Shown one piece after another: positions 2,244-26,570 of a DNA stretch of 26,570 nucleotides. Within the stretch, counting starts at the first letter, position 1. Every line of letters begins with the position of its first letter. A model generated the notes under the pieces. It ran no database searches, had not been told where the DNA came from, and was given only the letters and a program-made list of their open reading frames with translations. The position numbers and the translations under genes were made by a program. Source of the stretch: a virus; the IMG/VR virus record IMGVR_UViG_3300030118_003436, positions 3,868-30,437 of that record. The stretch is one strand, 5' to 3'.

Positions 2244-4027
2244 TCGACTAGGGTAGTATCAGCGTTTTGTAAAGCTCCACTTAATGTTTTTATAGATCGT
2301 GGAGGCTTATTGAAAGATACATCTCCTTCTTTTGGTGGGTCGACAGCTACTAAACCTAGTCTTTGACGAGCACAATCTAACGCTAAAAACGCTGCATCTG
2401 CAAGGTCTGGACTTTTACCAAAGCGAGCTTTGTATTCAGGTTTACTTTCAATTTTCATACGAAGGGTCGAACCCTTTACATGATCATAATTTCTTCCTGT
2501 TATTTCTTGCGCTAAATCTGAACTGACCCCAAAGATTTGACGAGTCCTCATCAACTCTTTACCAACAAACCAAAGTTCAGATACCCTATTAACGTAAAGT
2601 TCATGTCCTACAAGTTTGCTGTTGACGCTGACGCGCTTGTCACTTGCTTTACCTCCGAATGAAACCCTCATAAAACGGCCAGACCATTCACCTGCCAGAA
2701 CGTCACAAAACGGAGCACCAGCTCCAGTAGCGTCCACACTTACATTTTCAGGTGGGACGTTATGCTTTGTGCATAAATCTTTGATTTGTTTTACAATTTG
2801 GTAAGTCCTTGGAATCGCCTTATTAGTTGCGTCATCGTTTAAATGAACGGCTTGTCCAAACTCTATAACATATTGACCACTGCTGTCATAACCACACTTA
2901 GCTAAAAAAGCGATACACCTATCGCCGCCATTCGTGAAGGCCGGATCAATACCGCAAAGGTTAATCGGAGTGCTCTGCCATTGAACAGAGTTCATAGCTT
3001 TACTATTTGCTATTTCGTTTTCTGTATAAATACCTGTGGTCTCATCACTATCAAAGAAAACAGCTCTGACCATTCGCATATAACCTCTGCTTTCAACTCC
3101 AAGTAATGCTTTGTCTTCGGCAAGTTTTTCTTCCGTGGGTAGCCATGGGTAAATAGTTTCTCCTGCTAGAATGTTGGGAGATCTCTCTCCATCTAAACGA
3201 ACATATTTTCCTTTCCATTTAGTGTCCCACTCATCGGCAGTATTTGTGTCCACACTATCCCATCCGTCTTTAGGAGTTGACCAAACCCCAAATGCGTCGA
3301 AGCGGCTATTAGGGTTAGACATACCGATCATTTGAAATGAAGGGTTTTTACTCAAGTTTGTAAGACCTGCGTTAAGGATAGCTTCAGAAAGTTCTGAAAG
3401 CTCGTCGCCAATAAGGATCACGCGTTTTTGTTTAATACCAATGAATTTACCTACCGCTTCTTTGGTTTTACTTTTTTCCGCTGAGATCAATGAAAGCCCA
3501 GCTCGTTCTATAAGAATGTCTTTTTCGTTTACATAAGAAGCGTTGCCTATTGAATCCCTAATCTTGATCGGTGCATCATCAATAACGGATAGGAGAGACA
3601 TCACACTGCCCCATATACGTTTACGAGCTTCGCGCAGTGTAGTGGAAGTCATAAGGACTAGAGTGTCTTGGGGTTGAGATAGCCAATTGATTATCCCCCA
3701 CGCAGCCATTGTATGTGATTTCCCAGATGATGCACTTCCCCCAACAGCAAGATATTTATTGTTGATCGCAGCTCGTATCATCATCTCAGCCCACGGATGC
3801 TTAACCATTAACTTTTCTGGGAGATCTTCGCGGTTCCATAACTCATCACAAATTCTCCAGAAATAATATTCACGAGCAAGAGGTTCTTCATGTTTAGCAA
3901 AACCATAAAGAAGTGCTGTCAATAAGCTAGTTGGGGGAATAGAGAAACCGCCCACGTCCATCCTTTTTGTTTTAGGACAGATTTTAGGTTCTAGTAACTG
4001 CTTGCTCCTCTCTTCCTTTAAAGCCAT
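2240..4027 (-). CDS. terL: terminase large subunit (DNA-packaging ATPase/nuclease)
   Basis: A 595-residue protein with the two-domain plan of phage large terminases. The ATPase domain has a Walker A loop GGSASSGKS (residues about 96-104), Walker B VILIGDELSE (about 203-212) and a motif III-like GMSNPN (about 235-240). The C-terminal RNase H-fold nuclease has the expected acidic residues in GIDPAF (D361), VSVDATGAG (D432) and SPDLADA (D541, D544). It would pump DNA into the prohead and cut concatemers. The length is normal for the family and all key residues are present. It is encoded divergently from the HTH gene at 4054, with 26 bases between start codons, instead of directly downstream of a small-subunit gene. 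The ATG has no Shine-Dalgarno sequence; a promoter-like pair lies at 4037-4064. Confidence 0.96.
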   Translation of the reverse strand: MALKEERSKQLLEPKICPKTKRMDVGGFSIPPTSLLTALLYGFAKHEEPLAREYYFWRICDELWNREDLPEKLMVKHPWAEMMIRAAINNKYLAVGGSASSGKSHTMAAWGIINWLSQPQDTLVLMTSTTLREARKRIWGSVMSLLSVIDDAPIKIRDSIGNASYVNEKDILIERAGLSLISAEKSKTKEAVGKFIGIKQKRVILIGDELSELSEAILNAGLTNLSKNPSFQMIGMSNPNSRFDAFGVWSTPKDGWDSVDTNTADEWDTKWKGKYVRLDGERSPNILAGETIYPWLPTEEKLAEDKALLGVESRGYMRMVRAVFFDSDETTGIYTENEIANSKAMNSVQWQSTPINLCGIDPAFTNGGDRCIAFLAKCGYDSSGQYVIEFGQAVHLNDDATNKAIPRTYQIVKQIKDLCTKHNVPPENVSVDATGAGAPFCDVLAGEWSGRFMRVSFGGKASDKRVSVNSKLVGHELYVNRVSELWFVGKELMRTRQIFGVSSDLAQEITGRNYDHVKGSTLRMKIESKPEYKARFGKSPDLADAAFLALDCARQRLGLVAVDPPKEGDVSFNKPPRSIKTLSGALQNADTTLVD

Positions 4028-6833: not shown

Positions 6834-7490
6834 ATGAGTAAAGAAAAAACTGAGCTTGCGAAAGCTCCCTCTACTGCCCTAACAACATCTGCAATTTCAG
6901 ATACGTTAGATCAATCAGACATTGATATTCCAAGAGTCAATGTCGTTCAAAAGACCAGCGACATAACTGGCCCTGATGGAACTCCTGCTCCGTATGGGTC
7001 TCTTGTATTAGACAAGAGGATCATTCTTGCACAACCAGAGGAACCAATTCAAGTGGTTCCCCTTAGTGCTACTAAAGCATGGAGAGAAGATGTTCCGTTT
7101 GAATCGGATGACATCCCACGCATTGCAAATAATGTCGAAGAGAAGAACAAACTCAGCACGGACTCAGAATATCCTATTCTTGAGTTTGCTGAAATTACTC
7201 TTCTGTTCAAGGGTAGTGATGACGTTGAGTCGTTTCCTTTCCCCCTTGGTAAACACAATTATGCAATGGGCAGGATTAATGTTGCGAAAGATGCTTATCG
7301 TCAAACCTTCAAAAGGTTGGCGACATTTGCTGTGTTTAACAAGACAACGCCTATTCACAAACGTCTATGGAACTTTCAATCAACTGCTATCACCCGTGGT
7401 AAATACAGTTGGTTTGCGCCGTCCCTAACTATTACTAACGAAGAACCAAGTGATGAAGTCGTAGACTTTATCTCTGGTTATTTAGGATAA
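6834..7490 (+). CDS. unrecognised phage protein, possibly ssDNA-binding
   Basis: A 218-residue protein with a polar, disordered-looking N-terminus (about 1-30). The rest is rich in predicted beta-strands and aromatics (LEFAEITLLFKG, RLATFAVFNK, WNFQSTAITRGKYSWFAPSLTI). The acidic C-terminus EEPSDEVVDFISGYLG ends in an aromatic/hydrophobic tip. An acidic tail after a beta-rich core is typical of phage ssDNA-binding proteins such as T7 gp2.5. Its place between a RecB-like nuclease and DNA polymerase is the usual site for such a gene. No diagnostic motif is visible, so this is an inference from architecture and context. It starts 28 bases after the nuclease stop and has a purine-rich (AAGAAACAAGAAAC) rather than a Shine-Dalgarno leader. 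Confidence 0.75.
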   Translation: MSKEKTELAKAPSTALTTSAISDTLDQSDIDIPRVNVVQKTSDITGPDGTPAPYGSLVLDKRIILAQPEEPIQVVPLSATKAWREDVPFESDDIPRIANNVEEKNKLSTDSEYPILEFAEITLLFKGSDDVESFPFPLGKHNYAMGRINVAKDAYRQTFKRLATFAVFNKTTPIHKRLWNFQSTAITRGKYSWFAPSLTITNEEPSDEVVDFISGYLG

Positions 7491-7705
7491 TGGATGCGGT
7501 ACAAACTCAAATGGAAGTCTTATCGGTTGAAATCGAAAGGCTTGGGGAAATAATCGAAAACATTGAAAAGGCCGTCGAAGCAAGCAAAGTTGATTTACAA
7601 GCCACAAAGATTATCAGAGATAGTCTTGTAACAGTGCTTGGCAGCTACTCCACCACAGCTCCTCTAGAACTGGGGTTGGATGTTGAAGAAACGGCACAAG
7701 AATAA
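7490..7705 (+). CDS. small coiled-coil protein
   Basis: A 71-residue protein starting in the stop of the preceding gene (TAATG). Residues about 1-45 form a heptad-patterned acidic helix (VLSVEIERLGEIIENIEKAVEASK), followed by a short helical stretch and an acidic tail. It has no membrane segment. The one-base overlap suggests coupled synthesis with the 218-residue protein, with which it may form a complex. No function recognised. Confidence 0.75.
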   Translation: MDAVQTQMEVLSVEIERLGEIIENIEKAVEASKVDLQATKIIRDSLVTVLGSYSTTAPLELGLDVEETAQE

Positions 7706-7724
7706 TTCCGACAAGGAATAGGTA

Positions 7725-7781
7725 ATGCGGCGGCCTTGGCTTGGGCTGGTTAATTTCATTCACCTAGAGGTAACCGCATAA
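7725..7781 (+). CDS. 18-codon leader ORF upstream of the DNA polymerase
   Basis: ATG at 7725 opens an 18-residue frame, MRRPWLGLVNFIHLEVTA, ending in TAA at 7779-7781. It is in the same frame as the polymerase ATG at 7854, and the 24 codons between are open (KPLPPTPTPLFRQSK...). With a few single-base indels the same DNA would read ...LVNSFTRGNR..., a string I half-recall from short marine phage ORFs but cannot verify. It may be a leader peptide, a decayed small gene, or chance coding in a structured RNA. There is no Shine-Dalgarno sequence. Confidence 0.3.
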   Translation: MRRPWLGLVNFIHLEVTA

Positions 7782-7795
7782 AAGCCTCTTCCCCC

Positions 7796-7839
7796 CACCC
7801 CGACTCCCCTTTTTAGGCAATCAAAGGGGGGTCGGGGTG
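7796..7839 (+). repeat. 17-bp hairpin ending 14 bases before the DNA polymerase start
   Basis: CACCCCGACTCCCCTTT (7796-7812) and AAAGGGGGGTCGGGGTG (7823-7839) pair over all 17 positions, with one G-U wobble (T7805 with G7830). The loop is 10 bases, 7813-7822. It is highly GC-rich against an AT-rich genome. The 3' flank GAACCCTATATACCT has no T-run, so it is not a standard terminator on either strand. It would sit against or inside the ribosome-binding region of the polymerase mRNA and so could limit translation. A replication-origin structure is another possibility. Confidence 0.8.
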
Positions 7840-7853
7840 AACCCTATATACCT

Positions 7854-9617
7854 ATGGATAAAAATATTTATGCAGTAGATTTTGAAACCTACTATGACAA
7901 AGAGTGCAGCATTAAAACTCTAGGAACGTTAGGCTATTTTAGCCACCCACAATTTGATGCATACATGGTTTCCGTTGTAGGAAACGATGGAACTAGTTTC
8001 GTTGGGCACCCAAAAGATTTTAACTGGGATATCCTTACAGGAAATATTGTGCTTTCGCATAACGCTAGTTTTGATGAGACCCTGTATCTTTACGGAGTAG
8101 AACATGAATGGTGGGATTCATGTGACCCATTTGAGTGGCACTGCACAGCAGACCTAGCCGCTTATTGTAAGCTCCCAAGATCCTTGAAAGGATCAACGGC
8201 AGAATTGTTTGACTTAACCGTAGATAAAAGCACGAGGGATAACATGTCTGGCAAGAGGTGGGAGGAAATGACAAAAGAATTTAAAGATGAGGTCAGTGAG
8301 TATGCACTAAAAGACAGTGAACTGTGCCTTAAATTATGGGAGACATTGAGTGATAAGTGGCCTGAGTTCGAAAGGAACATAAGCAGCTTGAACAGAAAGA
8401 TTGTTCAGGAAGGAATCCCCATCAACGAAGATCTTTTAAAGGAGCAACTAGAAACTATTAAAGTTAAGTTGTTTGAAGCAGAAGAAGTTATTCCGTGGCT
8501 GGGTGAAAAACCGTTACTTAGTCGTGCAGCATTCGATGAGCAATGCTTGCTGGTAGGGATTGAGCCTCCAGTAAGTTTAGCTGTGACTGATGAAGAGTCC
8601 CAGAAATGGGTAGAATATCATAGCAAAGAATTTGCGTGGATAAGTGCGGTGAAGGATTGGCGAAGGATTAACTCTCTCCAAAAGAAGTTGGAAAGTTTTG
8701 ATTACGCAACGATGCCTAACGGCAGATATTACGGGGGATGCATGTATTTTGGAGCGCATACTGGGAGATTTTCTGGATCTGGGGGAAACTTAAACTTACA
8801 GAATTTACCAAGGGAGGAAATGTTTGGTGTAAACCTAAGGCATTTAATAGCTCCTAATTCTGACAAAAGATTAATCGCAGTTGATCTTTCTCAGATTGAA
8901 GTCAGGACACTTTGCTGGTTAGCTAAGGATTCCGAAATGCTTGAAGAGATACGTAACACAGATGATATCTATGAAGCTTTTGCCATAAGGTTTGGTATGT
9001 GGAATGAAGAAAAAGGATCAATAAAACAAGACCCCAAACTAAGGCACGCAGTAAAAGGAATGGTGTTGGGTTGCGGCTATGGGGCAGGAGCTGCTAGGTT
9101 TGCTTCTATGTCTGGTATTAGTGAAGACGAAGCTGGGAAAAGAGTTCGTAAATATCGGATGAAGATGAGGAGGGTTAAGAACCTTTGGGATAAATACACT
9201 AGTGATATCGAATGCTCCCACCAAGCTAAGTCTGAATTTACTGTGGATCTTCCTAGTGGTAGAGTTATCAACTATGGTCGGCTAAAAGCTTTAGCGGAAG
9301 GGGGAAGACTTCACTTTATAACCAAAATGCCTAAGCACGGTAAAAATATTACAGTCCGTCTTTGGGGAGGGCTTGTGGCAGAGAATGCCAGCCAAGCTTT
9401 AGCCAGAGATATTTTTTCTGATATGCTCCTGAGGGTAGATAAAGCAGGACATAGAATCATTATGCACGTTCATGACGAGATGGTAATTGAAGCGGATGAA
9501 GATAAAGCCAAACAAACACTAGAGGATGTTATCTCCATAATGTCCAAACCTCCTGAATGGATTCCCGATATCCCAGTAGATGCAGAAGGATCAATACTAA
9601 CAAAATATGAAAAATGA
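7854..9617 (+). CDS. family A DNA polymerase with 3'-5' exonuclease, Leu-type motif B
   Basis: A 587-residue replicative polymerase without a 5'-nuclease domain. The proofreading exonuclease has AVDFETY (D9, E11), LSHNASFD (N70, D74) and YALKD (Y150, D154). The polymerase domain has TGRFSGSGGNLNLQNLPR (about 303-320), motif A AVDLSQIEVR (D344), motif B RHAVKGMVLGCGYG (R397, K401, L405, Y409) and motif C MHVHDEMVIE (H540, D541, E542). All catalytic residues are intact. The residue aligned to E. coli Pol I F762 is leucine (L405). Work on marine phage polymerases links this variant to slower, less error-prone replication and often to temperate lifestyles. The gene ends with a 4-base ATGA overlap with the primase-helicase, so the replisome pair is probably translationally coupled. 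Its start lies behind a strong hairpin. Confidence 0.96.
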   Translation: MDKNIYAVDFETYYDKECSIKTLGTLGYFSHPQFDAYMVSVVGNDGTSFVGHPKDFNWDILTGNIVLSHNASFDETLYLYGVEHEWWDSCDPFEWHCTADLAAYCKLPRSLKGSTAELFDLTVDKSTRDNMSGKRWEEMTKEFKDEVSEYALKDSELCLKLWETLSDKWPEFERNISSLNRKIVQEGIPINEDLLKEQLETIKVKLFEAEEVIPWLGEKPLLSRAAFDEQCLLVGIEPPVSLAVTDEESQKWVEYHSKEFAWISAVKDWRRINSLQKKLESFDYATMPNGRYYGGCMYFGAHTGRFSGSGGNLNLQNLPREEMFGVNLRHLIAPNSDKRLIAVDLSQIEVRTLCWLAKDSEMLEEIRNTDDIYEAFAIRFGMWNEEKGSIKQDPKLRHAVKGMVLGCGYGAGAARFASMSGISEDEAGKRVRKYRMKMRRVKNLWDKYTSDIECSHQAKSEFTVDLPSGRVINYGRLKALAEGGRLHFITKMPKHGKNITVRLWGGLVAENASQALARDIFSDMLLRVDKAGHRIIMHVHDEMVIEADEDKAKQTLEDVISIMSKPPEWIPDIPVDAEGSILTKYEK

Positions 9618-11779
9618 AATACAGATACCTTAAAAATCTTAGAGCCAAAAAAATTACAGCTTGCGATGACATGTCGCAGATTGTTGCCCAGAGACCAGTC
9701 TTTAAATCAAAAGCATTATATAGAGAGTGGTGTGGTAAAACTGACACTGATCATTATTTCTTTAGTTTGGCAGAGGGCCTTAATAGTGGGGCGCGTATCG
9801 AAGGTGAGAATAAAGTAGTTAAGGTACATGGTGTTGCTGCTGATTACGATGCGCCCGTTGACTGGGCTAACGTCGATAATATTATCGCCGCTAAGTGTGT
9901 AGATTGTATGCCTTCATGGAGGGCGATGACATACAGCGGATACATTCGTGTCGTTTTTGAATTCGAAGAAGTATGTTCTGTGCCTCATTTTCTTTATCGT
10001 CCTTTTATGGGCGAACTCAAAAAGCTTATAAATTTTTCTAAGATATTTGCTGGGTACGATAAGAAGTCTGAAGAGCCATCACAGTATTTTGAGTTGGGAA
10101 CCGAGTGGGTTGCGCTGAATGGAAAGGTTCCAGCGGCGGTTGTCCAGACTGCACTTATCAAAGCAGCTAAGAATAACCCTCCTGAATCTGCTGACACATC
10201 TATACCCATAGAAGAAGTCGCTGCTGAAGTTCAAAAGAAATTTCCAAATCGTTGGATAGGAGACTTTGAAGTGGGGTCAAGAGGCCCTTTGTTCTGGATT
10301 GATGATGGAATTGATAGGGAGGGGTGTCAGGTATTTGAAGATGGGATGATTGTCTATTCAGACAGAGACTATGGATGGAAGCCTTGGAGAGAAATATTTG
10401 GGCCTAGCTTTGTTAAAGGCTATGAGCAAAAGAAGATGGGGGGCTTACTTGATGAGTATTGGTTTAATGGCAGACAATTTTTTAAGCTGTTACATGGAGC
10501 AGCACAACCTATCCCTAGAGATCAGCTCGTCCTAGAACTTAGACAGCGTGGTTTTAAGAACTCTACAAAGAAAGGAGACAACATTTCTGAAGTGGAGAAT
10601 GCTATATTAGTTATAAGCAACCAGAATAGAATAAATGAAATAGCTCCTGTTGTGTTTAGACGTAACGAAATAGTCGTTGATTTCAACGGCCTTAGGATAC
10701 TTAACAGTTCTAACATCCAGCCTATATTACCTTCGGGTGATCCTGACCCCTCGAATTGGCCTTGGCTCGATATGTTCTTTGACCAGTTCTTTGTGGACTC
10801 AACTGAGGTGAGAACTAAGTATTACTTCTTTGCGTGGATGAAGCGATACCACGCTGGTGTTGTAAACAACAGGGAAGATCAAGGGCAAGCGTGTATTCTT
10901 GTAGGGCCAGCTAAGAAAGGTAAGACACTTGTATCAAATAAAATTATTGCCGCCGCAGTAGGAGGGTATGCAGATGCTAGTGACTACTTGTCTGGGGGAA
11001 CAAAGTTTAACAAAGATTTGGGAAGAGCAGCTTGTTGGGTAATTGATGATACCGTTAGTGCTGCTTCATTTCAAGATCAGCGCAAAGCGACAGAGCTTAT
11101 TAAGAGAGCTGTAGCTAATCCCCGTATTGAATTTATGGCTAAGTATGCAGACGCTGTAACTTTACCATGGGCAGGGAGAGTTGTTGTCAGCCTTAATGAT
11201 GACGCGAATAGTATGAGCGTTATACCAACTCTTGATTCAAGCAATAAGGATAAGCTCATGGCATTTAAAGTTTCGAACACGCCTTTTAATTTCCCTGTCA
11301 AAGCAAAGCTAGAAAACATTATCGCTACTGAAATGCCCCATTTCCTTGCTTGGTTGGATCAATGGAACCCACCTGCCGAGATCCTAGATGATGACAGGTT
11401 TGGTGTAAAAAGCTTTATCGACAAGAGTATTGCTCATGCGGCCTACGACAACTCAAGTAGATCACAAGTAGCAGAGCTTGTTGATTTCTTTGCTAAAGCA
11501 GCTCGTGAAAACGATGTCGAAAGAGAATGGAGTGGGACATTGACTGAGTTCCAGCGAGCTTTACACACCTACAACAACGGCAGAACTTTAGGTTCCTCAA
11601 ACAAAATTGAGTTCGTGCGGAATGGATTAGCACATATGGAAGATGGTGGTAAGTCCAACTTGAAACTTAGACCCATCAAGTCTGTTGGTAAGGGTGGTGG
11701 TAAGATATGGACTATCAATATAGAGGAGAAATATGATATCGACTTTACAGAGAATTCGAAGGACGCAATGCTCCAATAG
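9614..11779 (+). CDS. primase-helicase fusion (prim-pol-like N-terminus, P-loop helicase C-terminus)
   Basis: A 721-residue protein. The N-terminal ~180 residues include VHGVAADYDAP (D77, D79), which resembles the hhDxD motif of archaeo-eukaryotic primases (prim-pol), followed by RAMTYSGYIRVVFEF and FELGTEW. The C-terminal half has Walker A LVGPAKKGKT (about 429-438), Walker B CWVIDDT (about 474-480) and RVVVSLNDD further on, in the pattern of SF3/DUF5906-like phage helicases. It would unwind DNA and prime synthesis for the polymerase encoded just upstream (4-base overlap). The helicase call is firm; the primase call rests on one motif and on the usual fusion architecture. The 3' end overlaps the convergent nuclease-like gene by 35 bases, and the terminator for this transcript lies further inside that gene. 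Confidence 0.85.
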   Translation: MKYRYLKNLRAKKITACDDMSQIVAQRPVFKSKALYREWCGKTDTDHYFFSLAEGLNSGARIEGENKVVKVHGVAADYDAPVDWANVDNIIAAKCVDCMPSWRAMTYSGYIRVVFEFEEVCSVPHFLYRPFMGELKKLINFSKIFAGYDKKSEEPSQYFELGTEWVALNGKVPAAVVQTALIKAAKNNPPESADTSIPIEEVAAEVQKKFPNRWIGDFEVGSRGPLFWIDDGIDREGCQVFEDGMIVYSDRDYGWKPWREIFGPSFVKGYEQKKMGGLLDEYWFNGRQFFKLLHGAAQPIPRDQLVLELRQRGFKNSTKKGDNISEVENAILVISNQNRINEIAPVVFRRNEIVVDFNGLRILNSSNIQPILPSGDPDPSNWPWLDMFFDQFFVDSTEVRTKYYFFAWMKRYHAGVVNNREDQGQACILVGPAKKGKTLVSNKIIAAAVGGYADASDYLSGGTKFNKDLGRAACWVIDDTVSAASFQDQRKATELIKRAVANPRIEFMAKYADAVTLPWAGRVVVSLNDDANSMSVIPTLDSSNKDKLMAFKVSNTPFNFPVKAKLENIIATEMPHFLAWLDQWNPPAEILDDDRFGVKSFIDKSIAHAAYDNSSRSQVAELVDFFAKAARENDVEREWSGTLTEFQRALHTYNNGRTLGSSNKIEFVRNGLAHMEDGGKSNLKLRPIKSVGKGGGKIWTINIEEKYDIDFTENSKDAMLQ

Positions 11780-12278
11780 GTAAGTGATACCCATCTACTT
11801 TATAGGTGAATCCGTAATCATCGGGTTCACCTTTTTTCTTGTAGAGTCCTGATTTCTGAATCTTGAGTCCTGTAGCCCAACCCAGCATCCATGCTCTGGT
11901 AAAATCTTTTTTTACCCTGACAAAGAAATAAGCATTGGCAGGAAGCTTCTTTCCCTCAGCACAATTAACTGAAGCAGTGTAATGAGGCTGCGGTTTGCCA
12001 GCGCAACTCTTTGCCTTTACGTCTATCTTACGTTTACCAATCTCGTAGTCGTGGGTGTATGTTTTATCACCCACATAAACAGCTTCAGGATACAGTTTTT
12101 CAAAGGCAACCTCCCCCAAAAAACCTGTCATTCTTCCTGCCCCTCTCGTAAAGGAGTTGGGCAGCACCCCTAATTCTTCGCTTCGTTCGAACGCTTCTTT
12201 TATATTGTCGCTGTTAGGCGTAAAGATTAGCATGCCCTTAGTTCTATGGAACTGAGGGGGCAGCTTCTTGCGTTTCAT
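11745..12278 (-). CDS. PD-(D/E)XK restriction-endonuclease-like protein
   Basis: A 177-residue basic protein. GFLGEVAFEKLYP (E56) followed by HDYEIGKRKIDVKAKS (D77, D86, K88) matches the E...D...DxK layout of PD-(D/E)XK nucleases. VRVKKDFTRAWMLGWATG (about 120-140) looks like the strand/helix that follows the core. Such phage proteins include homing-like, Holliday-junction and host-DNA-degrading nucleases; the substrate cannot be told. It is the last gene of the minus block, overlaps the metallopeptidase-like gene by 4 bases and runs tail to tail into the primase-helicase (35-base overlap). Part of its 3' coding sequence also carries the plus-strand terminator, so its sequence is under a double constraint. 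Confidence 0.7.
   Translation of the reverse strand: MKRKKLPPQFHRTKGMLIFTPNSDNIKEAFERSEELGVLPNSFTRGAGRMTGFLGEVAFEKLYPEAVYVGDKTYTHDYEIGKRKIDVKAKSCAGKPQPHYTASVNCAEGKKLPANAYFFVRVKKDFTRAWMLGWATGLKIQKSGLYKKKGEPDDYGFTYKVDGYHLPIGALRPSNSL
11804..11837 (+). terminator. intrinsic terminator for the plus-strand replication block
   Basis: AGGTGAATCCG (11804-11814) pairs with CGGGTTCACCT (11822-11832) over 11 bp with one G-U wobble and a 7-base loop, followed at once by a run of six T (11832-11837). It lies 25 bases beyond the primase-helicase stop, inside the coding sequence of the opposite-strand gene (around its KKKGEPDDYGFTYK segment). On the minus strand there is no matching T-run, so it acts in one direction only. 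Confidence 0.85.
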
Positions 12279-18555: not shown

Positions 18556-21500
18556 TAGCAAGGGACTCAATATAAGCAACTGACCCGACTTCAGGTTCGG
18601 GGGCTTCAATTACTTCAGCCTCTTCAGGTTCTTCAATATCAACCTCTATTGCAAGCTTATCAATATCTTTTCTTTCTCCATAAACAACGTAGAAATAATT
18701 CAAAGGTTCATCGGTATTTGACCCCACAACAACATCTCCGTTGGACTCCACAGAATCAACAAACAAACATTGATTGGCTCCAATAGCCGTAAGTTCTACT
18801 GTCATGGAATCAAGGTCTACCAGCCCACCCCAATAATCCGGCATAGTTATAGTGTTGGAGGTGCTCTTACCTCGGAAGTATACACCAATCTCTGGCCCCT
18901 CAAGAGAGGCATGTACAAGCTGCTTGTTCTCTTTGGTTGGGTGATCAATTACAAAACTCTTATACGAGCCTTGAATACTACCATTAACTTGTAGTGCGTA
19001 GTAACCCGATACAGAACTGGTTCCTATACCTACGTTGCCTTGGATAAGCATTCCGTTAGTAGGAGCCGTAGCTGAAGTATAACTGGCTCCGATAGCTACA
19101 CCCCCATTAACTGCGAGTTTGCTACTTAGAGAAGTAGTCCCCACACCCAGTCTACCTGCGCTGGTGATCGTTACACCGCCGCTGGCAGAACTTGTGCCGC
19201 CGTTTGGCCTGAACCTAAAACCTTTACTACTAGAAGCAGCAAAATACATGTGGTCTGTACGCTTGGCAAATATCCTGTGATGACCATTGGTTAAGTTTGT
19301 TGTTCCGATTCCAAATGATCCATAGTCTCCTCCGAAAGTGCCATCGACATCAATCTTACTGTTGGCATCAGTGATAGTGACATCAGCTAAGGAAGCGTTG
19401 CTTCCTGATTTGTAAAATGTAGAAGCATGATACCCATCTAGTTTATCCGCATCTAATCCAGAGCTACTGCCGTCAACGGTCTTGATCGCGGTAAGAATCT
19501 CACTAGCAGTCTGATCTCCTTTAGCTCCGCTTTCAATCCCATCTAACTTATTCTTGAGTGTTGTGGTAAAATTCTTTTGAGTAAGTCCTCCGTCTCCTAC
19601 TGAGTAAGTTGTATTCGTATCTGACCAAGGGACATGCACGTACATCTTCTCGTTAGAAAGTTCGACTGGGTAGTACTTACCATTCTCCGGATACCCAATC
19701 TTTACACCTCCTCGTGTAGATGAAGATGCCACGGGTAACGAATAGTTATTTGCGTTAGATGCAATACCATCTAACTTAGACTTTAAAGCACTGGTGAAGT
19801 TTCTTTCAGTTAGTCCATTGTCTCCTACTGAGTAAGTAGTGTTAGTGTCTGTATTGATGCTGTCTTGCAGATTATCTAAAGTCATGTATTTCCACTCGGA
19901 ACCAGATTCGTCCCAAAGGAAAATTTTATCCGTAGTAGCATCAGTGGACTCATTCAACTCGCTTAGAGCTTCTGGGTCATACTTACTATGGAAAGACATA
20001 GCGCCTAATCCATCTAGACCTTTGTTTACAAGCTCTTGTATCGAAGGTTCGTTACCATTGACTTCTTCAAAACGTGGCCCATAGAAGTCTATAGAAGTAT
20101 TTTGATCAACGCTGTAGTATAAGTAAGTTCTATGTTGCTGAATGGTAGAACCATTCTTCATCATGAATTCGTTTGCACCGAAAACTTTTTTACCTGTTGT
20201 GCAGTCGTAAATTCCCCCCTGCCCACTCGTTGTAGCTCCTGATGACTGATATGGCTGGATGTATCCTATAGATACATACCACCTATCTTGGACGAAGCTA
20301 CTGTAACTCTGAGATTTAAAGTATGGGTTACTATTAACGGATCCATTAATATTTAAAGTGTGGCTTCCACTACAACCGTGATAAAAGGTTCCACTATTTG
20401 AATCATCCGTTGGTCTAAAATAAATAACAGACCTATACCCTTTAGTCGAATCAACCCCATTGATAGTGCAGTTCCAGCCACCATCAGCATCACTCGATGC
20501 ATCATTAGATGGAGTCTGCCACACGACACCTTTTGCCCCGTTTGGCAAAGTTTCTACAGACCTAGTGTTTTCAGCTTCTGCTCCATTTTGACCATAGTCA
20601 CCATTGAAGTTGAAGGGAGCCGTTCCAATACTACTCCAACCACTTGGGGCAGATCCACTAGTATCTCCTGACCACCCGTAGGTATTCATATAGTTACCTT
20701 GAACGCCTAATGTCTTGAAGTGATTAGTAACTTCACTCTCTGTATAATAACGTGAATCTAAGTTGGTACTACTTAACCCAGTTACGTGACCAAAAGTATC
20801 AAGAGTAACGTCTTGGATGACTGAGCCATTACTATTGTTAATAGATGACTGCGAAGATGTATCAGAGTGACTAAACGTAGTGCTAGATAAATTTAATCCT
20901 GATCCAGCAGCGTAGGTTGTATTGGTATTTGTGTCTGTCCAAGGAACGTTGACATACATCTTCTCAGATGAAAGCTCGACGGGGTAGTTCTTTCCGTTCT
21001 CGGAATACCCAACCTTAACACCACCTCTAGTAGAAGAAGAGGCAAGTGGTAGCGAGTAGTTGTTCGCACTGGCAGCAATACCATTTAACTTACTTTTAAG
21101 TGCGTCCGTAAAATTGTTTTGAGTAAGTCCACCATCCCCTACCGAATAAGTTGTATTAGTATCAACCCAAGGAACGTTGACATACATCTTCTCAGATGAA
21201 AGTTCGACGGGGTAGTTCTTTCCGTTCTCGGAATACCCAATCTTAACACCACCTCTAGTAGAAGAAGAAGCGAGTGGAAGAGAGTAGTTGTTAGCATTAG
21301 TAGCTCCAGTGTATCCAAGATCTGCGAGTGTCAACGTACGTGTGGAGTGTGATTGAATCACACCGTCTGTCATATTCAACTGGTCAATAACAGTAGAGCC
21401 AGATGTGTTTATGTCAGAGTCTGTGCCAATTACTTGATTAAAAGAAGATGCATGTAGCCCATCAAGTTTATCCGCATCTAATCCAGAACCAGATCCATCG

Positions 21501-22486
21501 TTATTGCTATGCCAAACATTGTAGCCTAAGACAGAAAGATTGCTTCCATCCCATTTTAATTCTTTCCTATTACTCCAAGCTGTATTGTTACTAGGAAATG
21601 CATAAGCAATGAATCCACCTTCTGCTCCAACAAAAACGGTTTCCCCTGAATTGTTGATATTAGAATTTAATACTGTTGATGTGTCTCCACCTGCAATTAT
21701 AACGGCATCGTCATGACCAATCGTGATAGCACCATTAGCAGTCATCCTCTGAAGGATAGCTTGCCCATCGACAGACAGAATGGTTCCAGTGTCAGGGGTG
21801 TAGTTTAATGTTCCTGAGAAATCATCGTTTGCATTACTTCTCAAAAATGCAGAACTATCAATACCATCAAGAAGGTTTGAATCAGCAGCTTTAGCACTTA
21901 CTCCTAACTTGCCCGAAAGTGCGGAAGTTATTGAAGAAGCATAACTTGAATTATCATCAATTGCTGCTGCCAGCTCGTTAAGAGTATTTAGGGCTGCTGG
22001 AGCACCATCAACCAAATTGTTTATCTGTGTCGTAACATACGATTGAGTAGCGTAACTAGGATTACTAGACGGAACCCAAGTAGGCGTTACATCTGCACCA
22101 GCGGCAATTCCATCTAATTTATTTTTAAGAGTGGTAGTGAAATTCTTTTGAGTAAGTCCACCATCTCCTACTGAGTAAGTTGTATTAGTATCAACCCAAG
22201 GAACGTTGACAAACATCTGCTCAGATGAAAGTTCGACGGGGTAGTTCTTGCCATTCTCAGTATATCCAACCTTAACACCTCCTCTTGTAGAAGAAGTGGC
22301 AAGTGGTAGCGAGTAATTGTTTGCGTTAGCAGCAATGCCGTCCAGCTTTGAACCATCAGAAGCAACGTCTCTGCCATCTACATTCCCAGATATAATTATA
22401 TTACCACCTACAGTAATATTACCACTGCTCTGGTAAGTCCCAGAAGTGTGCGTAAGTTTTCGTTGTGATGAAGTTACAGTAGCCAT
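18548..22486 (-). CDS. long repeat-built tail fibre / receptor-binding protein
   Basis: A 1312-residue protein. The N-terminus (MATVTSSQRKLTHTSGTYQSSGN) is followed by beta-structured repeats: KLDGIAANANNYSLPL, TRGGVKVGYTENGKNYPVEL, MFVNVPWVDTNTTYSVGDGGLT, repeated with a 76-residue period where intact. Interspersed LDADKLDGLHAS/LDGYHAS modules are common in phage fibres. A central Gly/Ser/Trp-rich insertion (about residues 595-830, including GYNYM-like YGWSGDTSGSAPSGWSSIG) looks like a separate receptor-binding domain. The C-terminal ~130 residues include KSFVIDHPTKENKQLVHASLEGPEIGVYF, a domain I associate with marine phage fibres, and an acidic tail. The gene starts 2 bases before the stop of the upstream adhesin gene and its stop overlaps the glycosyltransferase start. 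Confidence 0.88.
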   Translation of the reverse strand: MATVTSSQRKLTHTSGTYQSSGNITVGGNIIISGNVDGRDVASDGSKLDGIAANANNYSLPLATSSTRGGVKVGYTENGKNYPVELSSEQMFVNVPWVDTNTTYSVGDGGLTQKNFTTTLKNKLDGIAAGADVTPTWVPSSNPSYATQSYVTTQINNLVDGAPAALNTLNELAAAIDDNSSYASSITSALSGKLGVSAKAADSNLLDGIDSSAFLRSNANDDFSGTLNYTPDTGTILSVDGQAILQRMTANGAITIGHDDAVIIAGGDTSTVLNSNINNSGETVFVGAEGGFIAYAFPSNNTAWSNRKELKWDGSNLSVLGYNVWHSNNDGSGSGLDADKLDGLHASSFNQVIGTDSDINTSGSTVIDQLNMTDGVIQSHSTRTLTLADLGYTGATNANNYSLPLASSSTRGGVKIGYSENGKNYPVELSSEKMYVNVPWVDTNTTYSVGDGGLTQNNFTDALKSKLNGIAASANNYSLPLASSSTRGGVKVGYSENGKNYPVELSSEKMYVNVPWTDTNTNTTYAAGSGLNLSSTTFSHSDTSSQSSINNSNGSVIQDVTLDTFGHVTGLSSTNLDSRYYTESEVTNHFKTLGVQGNYMNTYGWSGDTSGSAPSGWSSIGTAPFNFNGDYGQNGAEAENTRSVETLPNGAKGVVWQTPSNDASSDADGGWNCTINGVDSTKGYRSVIYFRPTDDSNSGTFYHGCSGSHTLNINGSVNSNPYFKSQSYSSFVQDRWYVSIGYIQPYQSSGATTSGQGGIYDCTTGKKVFGANEFMMKNGSTIQQHRTYLYYSVDQNTSIDFYGPRFEEVNGNEPSIQELVNKGLDGLGAMSFHSKYDPEALSELNESTDATTDKIFLWDESGSEWKYMTLDNLQDSINTDTNTTYSVGDNGLTERNFTSALKSKLDGIASNANNYSLPVASSSTRGGVKIGYPENGKYYPVELSNEKMYVHVPWSDTNTTYSVGDGGLTQKNFTTTLKNKLDGIESGAKGDQTASEILTAIKTVDGSSSGLDADKLDGYHASTFYKSGSNASLADVTITDANSKIDVDGTFGGDYGSFGIGTTNLTNGHHRIFAKRTDHMYFAASSSKGFRFRPNGGTSSASGGVTITSAGRLGVGTTSLSSKLAVNGGVAIGASYTSATAPTNGMLIQGNVGIGTSSVSGYYALQVNGSIQGSYKSFVIDHPTKENKQLVHASLEGPEIGVYFRGKSTSNTITMPDYWGGLVDLDSMTVELTAIGANQCLFVDSVESNGDVVVGSNTDEPLNYFYVVYGERKDIDKLAIEVDIEEPEEAEVIEAPEPEVGSVAYIESLANA
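19587..19814 (-). repeat. 228-base fibre repeat, diverged copy
   Basis: One 76-codon unit starting CCTCCGTCTCC. It shares the 228-base period and the encoded order of motifs with the other units but differs at many codons. The next unit begins at 19815 (CCATTGTCTCC) and breaks off after about 45 bases. Confidence 0.7.
20901..21300 (-). repeat. two adjacent 228-base-family fibre repeats, the second incomplete
   Basis: A unit at about 20901-21128 is followed by one at 21129-about 21298 (CCACCATCCCC...). The two share long identical stretches (for example the ATACATCTTCTCAGATGAAA region), then diverge. Their shared variants (Lys for Gln in SEKM, Tyr for Phe in MYVNVPW) differ from the units at 22158 and 25053. 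Confidence 0.7.
22158..22385 (-). repeat. 228-base fibre repeat nearly identical to a copy in the other fibre gene
   Basis: The first ~152 bases from 22158 differ by eye at only three positions from the unit at 25053 in the separate fibre gene 24383-26570. The shared stretch then continues with more changes. Confidence 0.75.
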
Positions 22487-22487
22487 A

Positions 22488-24233
22488 TTAGTGTCTTAGT
22501 CGTTTGCGATTAACTTTAAATTTAATATTAGAATCTTTTGCTGCTGCGTGTAGAGATTGAAAAGAAACCACCATATCACCATTATAACCCGTATAATATG
22601 GGGCTTTATCTGGGTGACCTGTGCAGACTAACTTAACTCGCAGTTGATTTCCAGTAGTAGAAAAAACGTGGGAAGTTTCAGAGTCTTTATCATAAGTCTC
22701 CCAAGAACTCCCATTATTGTTGGATACATATATGGTAGCAGTACACCCCGATGGTGTGTGCAAATTAAAAGTATTTGTTACGAAAACTTGATCGATGTTA
22801 GCAGAATTTTCTAAAGTGAAAGTTCCCCATACACCTTCCCAGTTACCAATAAGCTCACGAGGTTTATCGTTTTCTTCCCAAATTTTAAACGAATGCCCAT
22901 CAGCTCCATAACCCATTTGAACCCAATACTTTGTTCCATTAGCAGAAGACATTAAGACTGCTCCACTTCCGTAGTCACTACGATAAGAACTCCCACGACC
23001 TCCTGTCGAAGTGTCCTCAGTAAGACTGTCTCTCCTTCTAAAGGAATGAACCTTATTATTATCAGTATCAAGGAAGCCACCCATCTGCGCCCAACCCCTA
23101 TCTCCGTGAATTGGTATGTGGTTAGGATAGCTAGGCAGCTTATCCATAGGGGTTCCAGAAGTCTTTTGATACTTTGTTCCAAATCGTAATAGTGCGTCTG
23201 TGAAAGCGATGTTATTAGAATCGTTAAAACTTACTTGGTTGTGAACGGTTGGAGCACTCCCACTCATACATGGCGTTATGTCAACATCAACTGCTTTAGT
23301 GTTACATCCTATCCAAAACCTATTTGGAGTGTTTACTGGATCAGGGCAAAAGAACCCTTGTTCATAACCATCGTCACCAACACCTGTGTCGCCTAAATCA
23401 CACCAAACTAACTTTGGTGATGCAGTAGATGCATCTTCTACGACAATAAAATTAGAATTGTAATACGCAGCATATATAACTCTGTCATTTATCTCGTCAT
23501 AAAAAAGCCAATGCCTGTATCCAGACCTATCTATCGTAGCTGTCCCTGATTTTAAATCTCCTGTGCCAGAACTGTTACCTAAAATTTGTTCTGTACCCGA
23601 ATTGAGACTTCTTCTACAGACTCGTCTTGCATGCCTGTTATCGTACTCACCCACATATATCCATTCCCCTGCTGCAACCAGCCCTGAAGTATAGTACAGC
23701 CCTGCACTGCTAATATTTAATCCGCTGCTACCTGCACCGCCTATAAATCTTTGAGGATTGCTATGTGTAGGTCTTGCATCTTTGACAAAAGTAGAACCAC
23801 CATTTAAACATCCACTATAATCAAAGGTGGTATAACCATCCACATTATAGGTCATCACCACTCCTAGCTTATTAGTTGTATCTATAGCTATACTTTGAAG
23901 ATGATTATAAGTACTAGAAGTATCTCTATATAAAAAATTATTATCTTGGAAGATTCTTGTCATACTTCCATCATTATTTAATCGTCTTACCGCAAACCCA
24001 TCTCCCCAACCTACTGTAAATAAAAGATCTCCATCTATCTCATATCCATTGGGAAATCCTATCACTCTATCTCCTCCGTCATACTGACCACTACTTGAGC
24101 TAACATGGGTATTGCTCAAACCACCCTTATGAACAGGGCCAATTGCTTTCTGACCAGAATAATCGTTTTGCCCAGCCCCAGTAATACTAATTAGATTAGC
24201 TCTAGATAATGATGCAGCTTTAAATTTAGACAT
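22488..24233 (-). CDS. putative adhesin / tail-associated receptor-binding protein (581 aa)
   Basis: A 581-residue beta-rich protein without the KLDGIA fibre repeats of its two neighbours. The N-terminal ~30 residues (MSKFKAASLSRANLISITGAGQNDYSGQKAIG) may be a docking segment. The body, about 60-420, has recurring strand/turn units with aromatic and Gly-Asp turns (DGDLLFTVGWGDGFAVRRL, SIAIDTTNKLGVVMTYN, YDEINDRVIYAAYYNSNFIVVEDAS) that look like blades of a beta-propeller. The C-terminal ~120 residues (GTFTLENSANIDQVFVTNTFNLHTPSGCTATIYVSNNNGSSWETY...) resemble a jelly-roll carbohydrate-binding or discoidin-type fold, though no motif confirms this. It lies between two fibre genes, so a cell-surface-binding role is likely. 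Its ATG overlaps the stop of the small gene upstream by 8 bases (ATGTCTAA). Confidence 0.65.
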   Translation of the reverse strand: MSKFKAASLSRANLISITGAGQNDYSGQKAIGPVHKGGLSNTHVSSSSGQYDGGDRVIGFPNGYEIDGDLLFTVGWGDGFAVRRLNNDGSMTRIFQDNNFLYRDTSSTYNHLQSIAIDTTNKLGVVMTYNVDGYTTFDYSGCLNGGSTFVKDARPTHSNPQRFIGGAGSSGLNISSAGLYYTSGLVAAGEWIYVGEYDNRHARRVCRRSLNSGTEQILGNSSGTGDLKSGTATIDRSGYRHWLFYDEINDRVIYAAYYNSNFIVVEDASTASPKLVWCDLGDTGVGDDGYEQGFFCPDPVNTPNRFWIGCNTKAVDVDITPCMSGSAPTVHNQVSFNDSNNIAFTDALLRFGTKYQKTSGTPMDKLPSYPNHIPIHGDRGWAQMGGFLDTDNNKVHSFRRRDSLTEDTSTGGRGSSYRSDYGSGAVLMSSANGTKYWVQMGYGADGHSFKIWEENDKPRELIGNWEGVWGTFTLENSANIDQVFVTNTFNLHTPSGCTATIYVSNNNGSSWETYDKDSETSHVFSTTGNQLRVKLVCTGHPDKAPYYTGYNGDMVVSFQSLHAAAKDSNIKFKVNRKRLRH

Positions 24234-24381
24234 TTTCTAATTCCTCTATCTTAGTTTTCGCTTCTTCCACAGCATCCCGACACAGTTTAATTAAGGTATC
24301 GTCTTCCCCTCTTTCTACTTCAAACTCATAGTCTTCTGTCCTTTCGGATAGAACATGCTTCCAATAATCTAGGTCTTCCAT
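24226..24381 (-). CDS. 51-residue charged helical protein between fibre genes
   Basis: I choose the ATG at 24381 (product MEDLDYWKHVLSERTEDYEF...), one base after the stop of the upstream fibre gene. A longer frame starting at 24438 would lie inside the fibre coding sequence and has a different composition. The product is 51 residues, acidic and almost wholly helical (EDDTLIKLCRDAVEEAKTKIEELENV). It overlaps the adhesin gene start by 8 bases. A fibre assembly chaperone is a reasonable guess from position and size; I do not recognise it. Confidence 0.65.
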   Translation of the reverse strand: MEDLDYWKHVLSERTEDYEFEVERGEDDTLIKLCRDAVEEAKTKIEELENV

Positions 24382-24382
24382 T

Positions 24383-26570
24383 TTATGCGATTGTGGTTTC
24401 CACCCAGAACTGGTGGTAATTGTTATTGTTATTCCCACTTATCTGGTAAACAAAGTTAGTGTTCATACCAGAGTAAACCTCTGTAGCAGAACTCCTTGAT
24501 AAGCTACCTTGAGAAGCGTGTTCGTGTTTGAAAACTTTATATGCTGTGACAAATCGAGCATTAGAACTAGGTGGATTCCACTGGATATGGAAGGCACAGT
24601 TCATAGGCACAACACTCATGTTAGTAGGCTCTGCACTAGATACAGTATAGGAAGTGCTACTTGTTGCCGCACTAGAAACGTTGCCCAATTTCTTGGCGTA
24701 TACTCTATATGCTTGTGTCCCTGTCTCCGTAAATGAGTTGTCAATGACACTCATAGTAGATGAAAAATCATCAGGAGATATGACAGAAATTAATCCAAAA
24801 TCACTGCCATCAACAGAACTGTAAACTAGATACTCATCTACACTACTTGTAGAAGATTGAGTGAATGAAATGTCTATAGTTTCACCTACAACAGAAACGT
24901 TAACGCTGGCTGGGGCAAGGGGTGCCGCAATGCTAGAACTAGTTAAATAGTTGGGATTACTGGAAGGAACCCAAGAGGGGGTCACATCTGCATTAGCGGT
25001 AATCCCATCTAATTTATTTTTAAGTGTAGTAGTAAAATTCTTTTGGGTAAGTCCACCATCTCCTACTGAGTAAGTTGTATTCGTGTCAACCCAAGGAACG
25101 TTGACAAACATCTGCTCAGATGAAAGTTCGACGGGGTAGTTCTTGCCATTCTCAGTATATCCAACCTTAACACCACCTCTTGTAGAAGAAGTGGCAAGTG
25201 GTAGTGAGTAATTATTAGCGTTATTCGCAATACCATCTAACTTACTTTTAAGTGTGTCGGTAAAATTGTTTTCAGTAAGTCCACCATCTCCTACTGAGTA
25301 AGTTGTATTAGTGTCAACCCAAGGGACGTTGACAAACATCTGTTCCGAAGAAACTTCGACGGGATAATTCTGGCCGTTTTCAGTATAGCCAATCTTAAAA
25401 CCACCTCTGGTAGAACTAGATCCTGCTGGTAACGAGTAGTTGTTCGCGTTAGCAGCAATGCCATCTAGCTTCGACCCATCAGTAGCTACGTCCCTGCCAT
25501 CTACGGTTCCTCCTAGTGTAATGTTATTACCTACATCTAAATTTCCAGCAGACGATAACGTCATTGCCGTACCATCTACTGAGTTGATGAACTGGAAACC
25601 ATTACCTGTTAACCCAGTTGTGGCTTTCCATGTTCCACCATAGTTTCGGAACTCTGATGTATCCGCAGTGTATACATTTCCTCCAGAGAAAATACCCGCT
25701 GAACCAATGTAACCTCTTGATGCTCCATCGACAGAAAACCTTAACTTACCTGAAGTTGCAAATAATCCTGAGTTATGAGAAGCAAATCTAAGACTTGGGG
25801 CATTGGAAGCACCATCAGGTATGGTTAAAACTCCAGTTAGGGTTCCACCAGACAGAGGAAGTTTGGTAGCAATGCTGTTGGTAACCGTAGTGGAGAAGTT
25901 AGCGTCATCTCCCAAAGCTGCTGCTAACTCATTGAGTGTATCAAGAGTAGAAGGAGCAGAATCAACTAAGTTGCTAATTTGCGTCCCAACGTATGATTGA
26001 GTAGCGTAGCTAGGGTCGCTGGATGGAACCCAAGTAGGTGTCACATCTGCATTAGCGGTAATTCCATCTAACTTATCTTTAAGGGCAGTAGTAAAATTCT
26101 TTTGAGTTAGTCCACCATCTCCTACTGAGTAAGTTGTATTAGTGTCAACCCAAGGGACGTTGACAAACATCTGTTCCGAATCGAGTTCGACTGGGTAGTT
26201 CTTACCATTCTCAGTATATCCAATCTTAACACCTCCTCTAGTGGTAGCATCTGATAATGGTAATGAGTAGTTGTTCGCGTTATCGTCGACACCTTCTAAC
26301 TTACTTTTAAGTGCGTCAGTAAAGTTGTTTTGAGTTAGCCCACCATCTCCTACTGAGTAAGTTGTATTAGTGTCAACCCAAGGAACGTTGACAAACATCT
26401 GTTCCGAATCGAGTTCGACTGGGTAGTTCTTACCATTCTCAGTATATCCAATCTTAACACCTCCTCTAGTGGTACCATCTGATAATGGTAATGAGTAGTT
26501 GTTCGCGTTATCGTCGACACCTTCTAACTTACTTTTAAGTGCGTCAGTAAAGTTGTTTTGAGTTAGCCCA
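24383..26570 (-). CDS. repeat-rich tail fibre with C-terminal fibronectin type III domains (5' end beyond window)
   Basis: The frame is open to the right edge, giving at least 728 residues; the methionine at 26398 is internal to a repeat, so the N-terminus is outside. Two near-identical 76-residue repeats open the visible part. Next come the WVPSSDPSYATQSYV / LDTLNELAAALGDD module, a non-repeated stretch (RFASHNSGLFATSGKLRFSVDGASRGYIG) and two more 76-residue units. The last ~190 residues read as two fibronectin type III-like domains (SVNVSVVGETIDISFTQ...EYLVYSSVDG and NMSVVPMNCAFHIQWNPPSS...YKVFKHEH...), which commonly aid carbohydrate or surface binding on phage tails. Together with the adhesin and the 1312-residue fibre it makes up the adsorption apparatus. 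Confidence 0.85.
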   Translation of the reverse strand, partial: GLTQNNFTDALKSKLEGVDDNANNYSLPLSDGTTRGGVKIGYTENGKNYPVELDSEQMFVNVPWVDTNTTYSVGDGGLTQNNFTDALKSKLEGVDDNANNYSLPLSDATTRGGVKIGYTENGKNYPVELDSEQMFVNVPWVDTNTTYSVGDGGLTQKNFTTALKDKLDGITANADVTPTWVPSSDPSYATQSYVGTQISNLVDSAPSTLDTLNELAAALGDDANFSTTVTNSIATKLPLSGGTLTGVLTIPDGASNAPSLRFASHNSGLFATSGKLRFSVDGASRGYIGSAGIFSGGNVYTADTSEFRNYGGTWKATTGLTGNGFQFINSVDGTAMTLSSAGNLDVGNNITLGGTVDGRDVATDGSKLDGIAANANNYSLPAGSSSTRGGFKIGYTENGQNYPVEVSSEQMFVNVPWVDTNTTYSVGDGGLTENNFTDTLKSKLDGIANNANNYSLPLATSSTRGGVKVGYTENGKNYPVELSSEQMFVNVPWVDTNTTYSVGDGGLTQKNFTTTLKNKLDGITANADVTPSWVPSSNPNYLTSSSIAAPLAPASVNVSVVGETIDISFTQSSTSSVDEYLVYSSVDGSDFGLISVISPDDFSSTMSVIDNSFTETGTQAYRVYAKKLGNVSSAATSSTSYTVSSAEPTNMSVVPMNCAFHIQWNPPSSNARFVTAYKVFKHEHASQGSLSRSSATEVYSGMNTNFVYQISGNNNNNYHQFWVETTIA
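25053..25508 (-). repeat. two head-to-tail 228-base fibre repeats
   Basis: Units start at 25053 and 25281, exactly 228 bases apart. The first is almost identical to the unit at 22158 in the other fibre gene. The second carries different codons at the SSEQ and GSSSTRGGFKIGYTENGQ segments and ends differently after about 190 bases. Confidence 0.75.
26112..26567 (-). repeat. near-perfect tandem duplication of a 228-base fibre repeat
   Basis: Units 26112-26339 and 26340-26567 differ by eye at two bases (GGGACG versus GGAACG, GGTAGC versus GGTACC). A further unit begins at 26568, so the array continues beyond the window. Each unit encodes 76 residues and carries VDDNANNYSLPLSDATTRGG-type sequence. 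Confidence 0.85.

Follow-up and report, generated by a model that had tools for sequence, protein, structure and literature searches.

The DNA analysed here (referred to as the window; 26,570 nt, positions 3,868 to 30,437 of the viral record IMGVR_UViG_3300030118_003436, the whole of which comprises 30,437 bases) raises the question of what is contained in 148 non-coding bases that separate the end of a short gene encoding 71 aa (7490..7705) from the ATG of a DNA polymerase gene at 7854. A first-pass annotation had described these bases as a structured leader with a strong hairpin and two competing pairings, resembling a riboswitch or attenuator. The gap is present as it had been described, and the downstream gene (polA, 7854..9617) indeed codes for a DNA polymerase of family A, with matches to Pfam DNA_pol_A (E 2.8e-33) and phrog_17 (E 1.8e-83). 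It is followed by a primase/helicase-like gene (9614..11779) with a weak match to phrog_1156 DNA primase (E 1.6e-4) and a Pfam DUF5906 domain. The product of the 71-aa gene upstream of the leader is coiled-coil-like by prediction and has no match in Pfam or PHROG. These genes and all leader features described below are on the plus strand. Genes were called as simple open frames, and many of the contigs used for comparison are fragments.

A pseudoknotted RNA in the leader

The entire 148-nt leader has a folding z of -3.5. Its first element is a small hairpin (TTCC-GACAA-GGAA, 7706..7718) directly after the stop codon and ahead of the motif described here; this hairpin is conserved in near relatives of the phage alone. 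The central part of the leader (7720..7789) looks, by sequence comparison, like a representative of a compact structured RNA class that has not been described before and that many phages carry. This motif, which starts with helix a and ends with the 3′ strand of helix d, is ~70 nt in length and was matched at 7718-7792 by a covariance model with 77.0 bits, the window row being part of the training alignment (A1). Its strand order, a-b-P3-P3′-a′-d-b′-d′, generates a chain of pseudoknots, in which helix a crosses b and helix b crosses d. Helix a consists of AGGT (7720..7723) and ACCT (7762..7765), the latter running directly into helix d, and helix b consists of TGCGG (7726..7730) and CCGCA (7774..7778). 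The P3 hairpin (7731..7735 paired with 7744..7748) is contiguous with helix b and has a loop that varies in length between copies. Helix d is formed by AGAGG (7766..7770) and CCTCT (7785..7789), and b and d correspond to stems 1 and 2 of an H-type pseudoknot. A UAA linker (7771..7773) connects d to b′, and an A-rich loop, UAAAAG (7779..7784), runs across helix b. Both are invariant in A1, partly by selection, because both are included in the retrieval pattern; the UAAAAG loop is also present in every copy retrieved through polA, and these copies were not selected by the pattern.

In 64 of the 80 non-redundant copies, a′ adjoins d without a gap. The strands of a′ and d are continuous, as are those of b and P3, from which two coaxial stacks can be predicted. 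By the same continuity, the RNA would have its 5′ end, where a starts, and its 3′ end, where d′ stops, at a single a/d junction.

The two pairings that had been thought to compete (ATGCGG/CCGCAT and AGAGG/CCTCT) correspond to helices b and d. Both exist, but they coexist in the 61 distinct copies of A1: 99.7% of cells are paired in helix b and 95.3% in helix d (98.7% in P3). The idea of mutually exclusive folds was therefore rejected.

A search for compensatory changes, which had been proposed as a check, gave a clear result. In A1 (alignment columns 3-6/59-62 for helix a, 9-13/72-76 for b, 14-18/40-44 for P3 and 63-68/83-88 for d), standard pairs occupy 96.3% of 1212 cells, and the covariation score is 0.541, compared with 0.164 after shuffling of columns (none of 500 shuffles reached 0.541) and 0.07-0.12 in slid controls with partners shifted by one to three columns. 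Changes on both sides of a pair occurred 244 times. The outer pair of helix a appears as A-U, G-C, U-A or C-G and its inner pair as U-G, U-A, C-G or G-C. Three of the five pairs of helix b show both-side changes in A1, where the retrieval pattern fixed purine/pyrimidine classes but left the combination of bases within a pair free, and further compensations were found in the wider set (TGATG/CATCA in L279 and TGACC/GGTCA in L286); pair 9/76, which is U-A in all other copies, is C-G in L439. The four outer pairs of helix d vary freely together in A1, and pair 67/84 occurs as G-C, A-U and C-G in further members. All four helix a pairs are possible in 74 of the 80 non-redundant copies, and in this wider set, where the pairings of b and d entered the selection, independent evidence comes only from helix a and from the two outer pairs of d. 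These findings support a conserved RNA structure of regulatory type. The covariance model (R2) also discriminates well: full-length members among the first loci scored 51-82 bits, whereas pattern-matched decoys that contain the same 18-mer by chance scored at most 26 bits, and diverged copies were matched down to about 34 bits. A protein-coding explanation was rejected, as core lengths fall in all three residues modulo 3 and the changes are compensatory.

The second pair of P3 (15/43) is an invariant G-U pair (61 of 61 copies), and G-U exchanges are frequent, which argues for function as RNA rather than as DNA. A function at the DNA level, for example as an origin or as folded single-stranded DNA, would agree with the location of the motif within the replication module of the polA phages. 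Considering these G-U pairs, the usual location of the motif on the strand of the upstream gene and its occurrence away from replication genes, we regard this explanation as very improbable.

The hairpin between the motif and polA

The strong stem noted in the first-pass annotation was reproduced exactly: a GC-rich, terminator-like hairpin of 17 bp with a 10-base loop (7796-7812/7823-7839; -33.7 kcal/mol, z -4.8) ends 14 bases before the ATG. Termination had been considered less likely than other roles for want of a T-run, and in the window the GC stem is indeed without a directly adjoining U tract, as would be present in an intrinsic terminator. However, U tracts follow the corresponding hairpin in five relatives (L037, L068, L134, L051 and L030), so the most suitable reading of the stem is a terminator, intact or decayed. 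In most polA phages, a strong hairpin lies between the motif and polA, its letters changing while pairing is kept by compensation; L217 and L226 contain no such hairpin, and their polA ATGs are located 7 and 4 nt after the pseudoknot, respectively. The 17-bp hairpin is an element separate from the pseudoknot, a terminator-like extra. A textbook intrinsic terminator does exist elsewhere in the window, directly 3′ of the primase-like gene (11804-11832), with an 11-bp stem followed by TTTTTCTTGT, that is, with the U run that is missing from the stem before polA.

Strong hairpins, with or without a U tract, follow the motif not only in the polA clade but also in L033, L076, L121 and L180. This arrangement would fit RNA-based antitermination similar to that by the put RNA of phage HK022, in which the nascent fold would bind the host RNA polymerase and allow it to pass the terminator(s) behind, here the 17-bp hairpin. 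Since there is little room for a promoter between the hairpin and the polA ATG, polA probably needs read-through; the single copy per genome described below fits as well, and RNA polymerase as the target would account for the strong conservation across phages. Nevertheless, no terminator closely follows the motif in L217, L226 and many other loci, and judging from these sequence arrangements we consider antitermination unlikely on balance. The two share a phage origin, a similar length, a location in early transcripts, terminators behind (for the motif, at part of the loci) and a low copy number per genome (PMC9378689). The put RNA is described as stem-loops and is not known to contain the pseudoknot chain of the motif.

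Distribution, neighbours and position of the motif

A search with the polymerase yielded 20 related contigs, of which 18 hold the leader, and all 18 contain the same core before polA: RGGTAATGCGGCGGC-loop-GCTGGTTA-n-TCATCACCY-NNNN-GGTAAYCGCATAAAAGCC-N′N′N′N′, with small variations. A pattern scan of the viral collection with GGTAAYYRCATAAAAGCC identified at least 119 stretches, most of which are full copies adjoining other genes. When scans for variant letters were added, the number of distinct copies rose to at least 183, or 80 after the removal of those with >85% identity. The copies come from phage contigs and a few bacterial genomes. Among 64 records searched whole, in which the viral records range from 4.6 to 211 kb, 60 contain one copy and the other four contain two. 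Paired copies located in one intergenic stretch or within a few hundred bases were observed at L119:3688-3887, L126:22-198, L115:1573-2104 and L279:418-582. The bacterial viruses that carry the motif number well over a hundred, are very diverse and have it beside many different genes.

The class that includes Cerasicoccus frondis contributed matches in 4 of 236 bacterial genomes, and a class of small genomes in 2 of 188. In C. frondis NBRC 105381 (contig JAVDPC010000022, L165), a RecT-like gene is located downstream of the motif. The single matches in the order of an Altibacter MAG (396 genomes) and in the class of a Rickettsiales MAG (190 genomes) are the query genomes themselves, and these copies possibly represent misbinned phage contigs. 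Bacteroidota as the sole host was rejected, because the one positive genome among the 396 of the Altibacter order is the phage contig itself. Motif queries of 50,697 phage records revealed no copy in isolate phages. A match in Pseudomonas phage PAK_P3 (L187) was dismissed as chance: it is antisense to a dCMP deaminase gene, has an E of 7 and is not matched by the covariance model. We found no description of the motif or its letters in the open-access literature, although unpublished or non-open accounts may exist.

The proteins encoded next to the motif fall into 40 clusters upstream and 49 clusters downstream, and tRNAs are found at other loci. Neighbouring genes include those for a polymerase, an HNH endonuclease, an exonuclease, a terminase and ParB-like, rIIB-like and integrase proteins. 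Downstream genes are unrelated to each other (polA, terminase, ParB-like, exonuclease, glycosyltransferase-like and tRNA genes) and are sometimes absent. In the phages in which an HNH gene precedes the motif (L026, L027, L049, L074 and L116), ~800 nt behind the motif contain no clear co-directional gene and look non-coding. The upstream neighbour is shared but the downstream neighbour differs in the HNH group, the L222 group and L336/L368, which makes a riboswitch for a single gene unlikely. The motif therefore looks like a context-independent RNA module and not a polA-specific switch.

These data bear directly on the proposal of a riboswitch or attenuator, in which a ligand or protein would stabilize the pseudoknot and control whether the following gene is affected by termination or translated. 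Open frames of at least 80 codons have their ATG no more than 35 nt from the motif in 23 of the 80 non-redundant copies; this proximity, the hairpin before polA and the tandem copies at L119, L115, L279 and L126 would be in line with such control. No Shine-Dalgarno sequence precedes the next ATG in any of the 23, a result that is uninformative because only 36 of 227 other genes on the same contigs have a Shine-Dalgarno-like site, so many of the hosts probably do without one. For polA in particular, the switch that had been suggested lost ground, as the helices are compatible and the same RNA stands beside unrelated genes and sometimes ahead of no co-directional gene at all. No conserved mutually exclusive helix is present. 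Rfam 15 yielded no match in the window at the gathering score, including to the phage glutamine-type riboswitches that were to be checked, and a permissive scan yielded chance-level matches only, mostly of microRNA models to the GC stem. Across 15 further loci, tRNA and tmRNA models alone reached the gathering score, none on the motif, and permissive scans of six loci produced chance-level matches and no family on the motif. By these scans of the window and other loci, the aptamers of glutamine-type and other known riboswitches are not recognizable in sequence or structure. The SAM-II, preQ1 and phage glutamine riboswitches also have an A-rich loop across stem 1 of an H-type pseudoknot; in contrast to them, the motif contains the extra crossing helix a and different conserved bases, and has neither a constant downstream pathway nor an Rfam match. 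Regulation of the riboswitch type thus appears rather improbable from sequence.

The tRNA neighbours and the low copy number are compatible with another explanation, a trans-acting small RNA that would be excised or separately transcribed and bind to a protein of the host or phage, to the ribosome or to a component of a defence system. A tRNA-Met ends just upstream of the motif in L082, L286, L302 and L279, and a tRNA-Thr is located just downstream in L067 and L137. The anticodon of the upstream tRNA is CAT in all four cases, three of which share an upstream gene cluster. In addition to this co-location with tRNAs, one copy per genome without a fixed neighbour and with a U tract or terminator behind it would suit a small RNA. 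So would L121, where a promoter-like site lies upstream, a terminator lies behind and no co-directional gene closely precedes the motif. On the other side, the short distances to stop codons (6-8 nt) and often to start codons (4-20 nt) suggest work inside an mRNA, and we hold a small RNA to be an unlikely candidate.

The spacing behind stop codons is distinctive. Among 26 upstream-gene clusters that end within 30 nt of the motif, the median distance from stop codon to motif is 6-8 nt in 11, compared with 2.1 expected under a uniform distribution (p 2e-6, the 6-8 nt range having been picked after the data were seen). This is approximately where the leading edge of a terminating ribosome would halt. 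The RNA could therefore fold during translation of the upstream gene. A stop-codon readthrough pseudoknot was rejected: the next in-frame stop follows after 0-48 codons without any pattern, and the spacing occurs in all three frames. In the flanks, G is rare at positions -1 and -2 (5 of 80 copies each versus a background of 20%, p 7e-4) and makes up 7% of the ten bases after d′. Of all copies, 34% have a TTTT no more than 20 nt from d′, compared with 10% of shuffled sequences. The location near the ribosome's leading edge, together with the 3′ location in the HNH-gene phages with no gene close behind, might indicate a passive structure at a 3′ end or translation boundary, one that would obstruct exonucleases or ribosomes beyond the stop codon. 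A simple hairpin would be enough for this purpose, and such a role leaves the invariant loop bases and the single copy per genome unexplained; we therefore consider it quite improbable.

Relation to HDV-like ribozymes and a candidate processing role

The single best guess that we can offer, a tentative one drawn from sequence, is that the motif is a cis-acting module for transcript processing, possibly by self-cleavage; RNA antitermination and a trans-acting small RNA come next, not far behind in likelihood. This reading is favoured by the covarying structure, by the autonomy evident from the varied neighbours, tRNAs and one copy per genome, by the boundary position 6-8 nt after stop codons with few G residues at -1 and -2, and by the tRNA-Met genes that end just before the motif, an arrangement similar to that of theta ribozymes. 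Small ribozymes typically show the same features, namely a comparable size, a double pseudoknot and invariant loops. The module would act autonomously on its own transcript, folding once the ribosome or tRNA leaves the sequence free. The transcript might then be processed at the module's own edge, by self-cleavage at or near the 5′ end as in HDV or by a cut that the module directs, which would give the upstream mRNA or tRNA a defined 3′ end and uncouple the downstream part. In the present phage, the mRNA for the exonuclease and the 71-aa protein would be split from polA, and the 17-bp hairpin would serve as an additional weak terminator.

HDV ribozymes have the nested order P1-P2-P3-P3′-P1′-(P4 hairpin)-J4/2-P2′. 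The helix order P1-P2-P3-P3′-P1′-P2′ contained in it equals a-b-P3-P3′-a′-b′ of the motif, and HDV-like ribozymes, including the theta ribozymes of phages, are of similar size, with two coaxial stacks predicted as well. In the motif, however, b′ lies inside the loop of the d hairpin, whereas P2′ of HDV follows P4; ~12-14 nt separate P3′ from a′; helix a has ~4 bp; and UAA stands where the J4/2 strand of HDV lies. With b′ within d, the helix order is not that of the HDV-like ribozymes; no Rfam match is present either, and the likeness to HDV is one of topology only. Some theta ribozymes and some copies of the motif are both placed beside tRNAs, the motif behind the tRNA; in theta ribozymes, the cleavage site adjoins tRNAs (PMC10879173). 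A putative new class of natural self-cleaving ribozymes, with a non-HDV order of the HDV-like double pseudoknot, dispersed among phages, present mostly once in a genome and cutting transcripts behind genes and tRNAs, is a possible but doubtful form of the processing reading.

Several observations weaken transcript processing as the function. Conserved compact pseudoknots are also known in riboswitches and protein-binding RNAs, and the U-rich tracts after d fit termination equally well. A promoter-like site precedes the motif by ~20 nt in L124 and L093, where the terminase ATG comes after the motif, and this arrangement places the motif at the start of a transcript. Furthermore, when ten orphan motifs were picked as candidate self-cleaving ribozymes in an earlier study, no cleavage was seen (PMC10085705).

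No family compared here matches the motif in sequence or helix order, so it may be novel at the level of the RNA family, and its function could be of a known kind. A conserved, nearly single-copy RNA without a fixed neighbour points to a common phage task done by RNA. If self-cleaving, it would join the very few classes of natural ribozymes; if acting on RNA polymerase or the ribosome, it would expose a general device of phage takeover.

Far from the leader, the last part of the window (19482-26570) contains tail-fibre-like genes on the minus strand, with at least eight repeats of ~300 nt that are often spaced at 228 nt.
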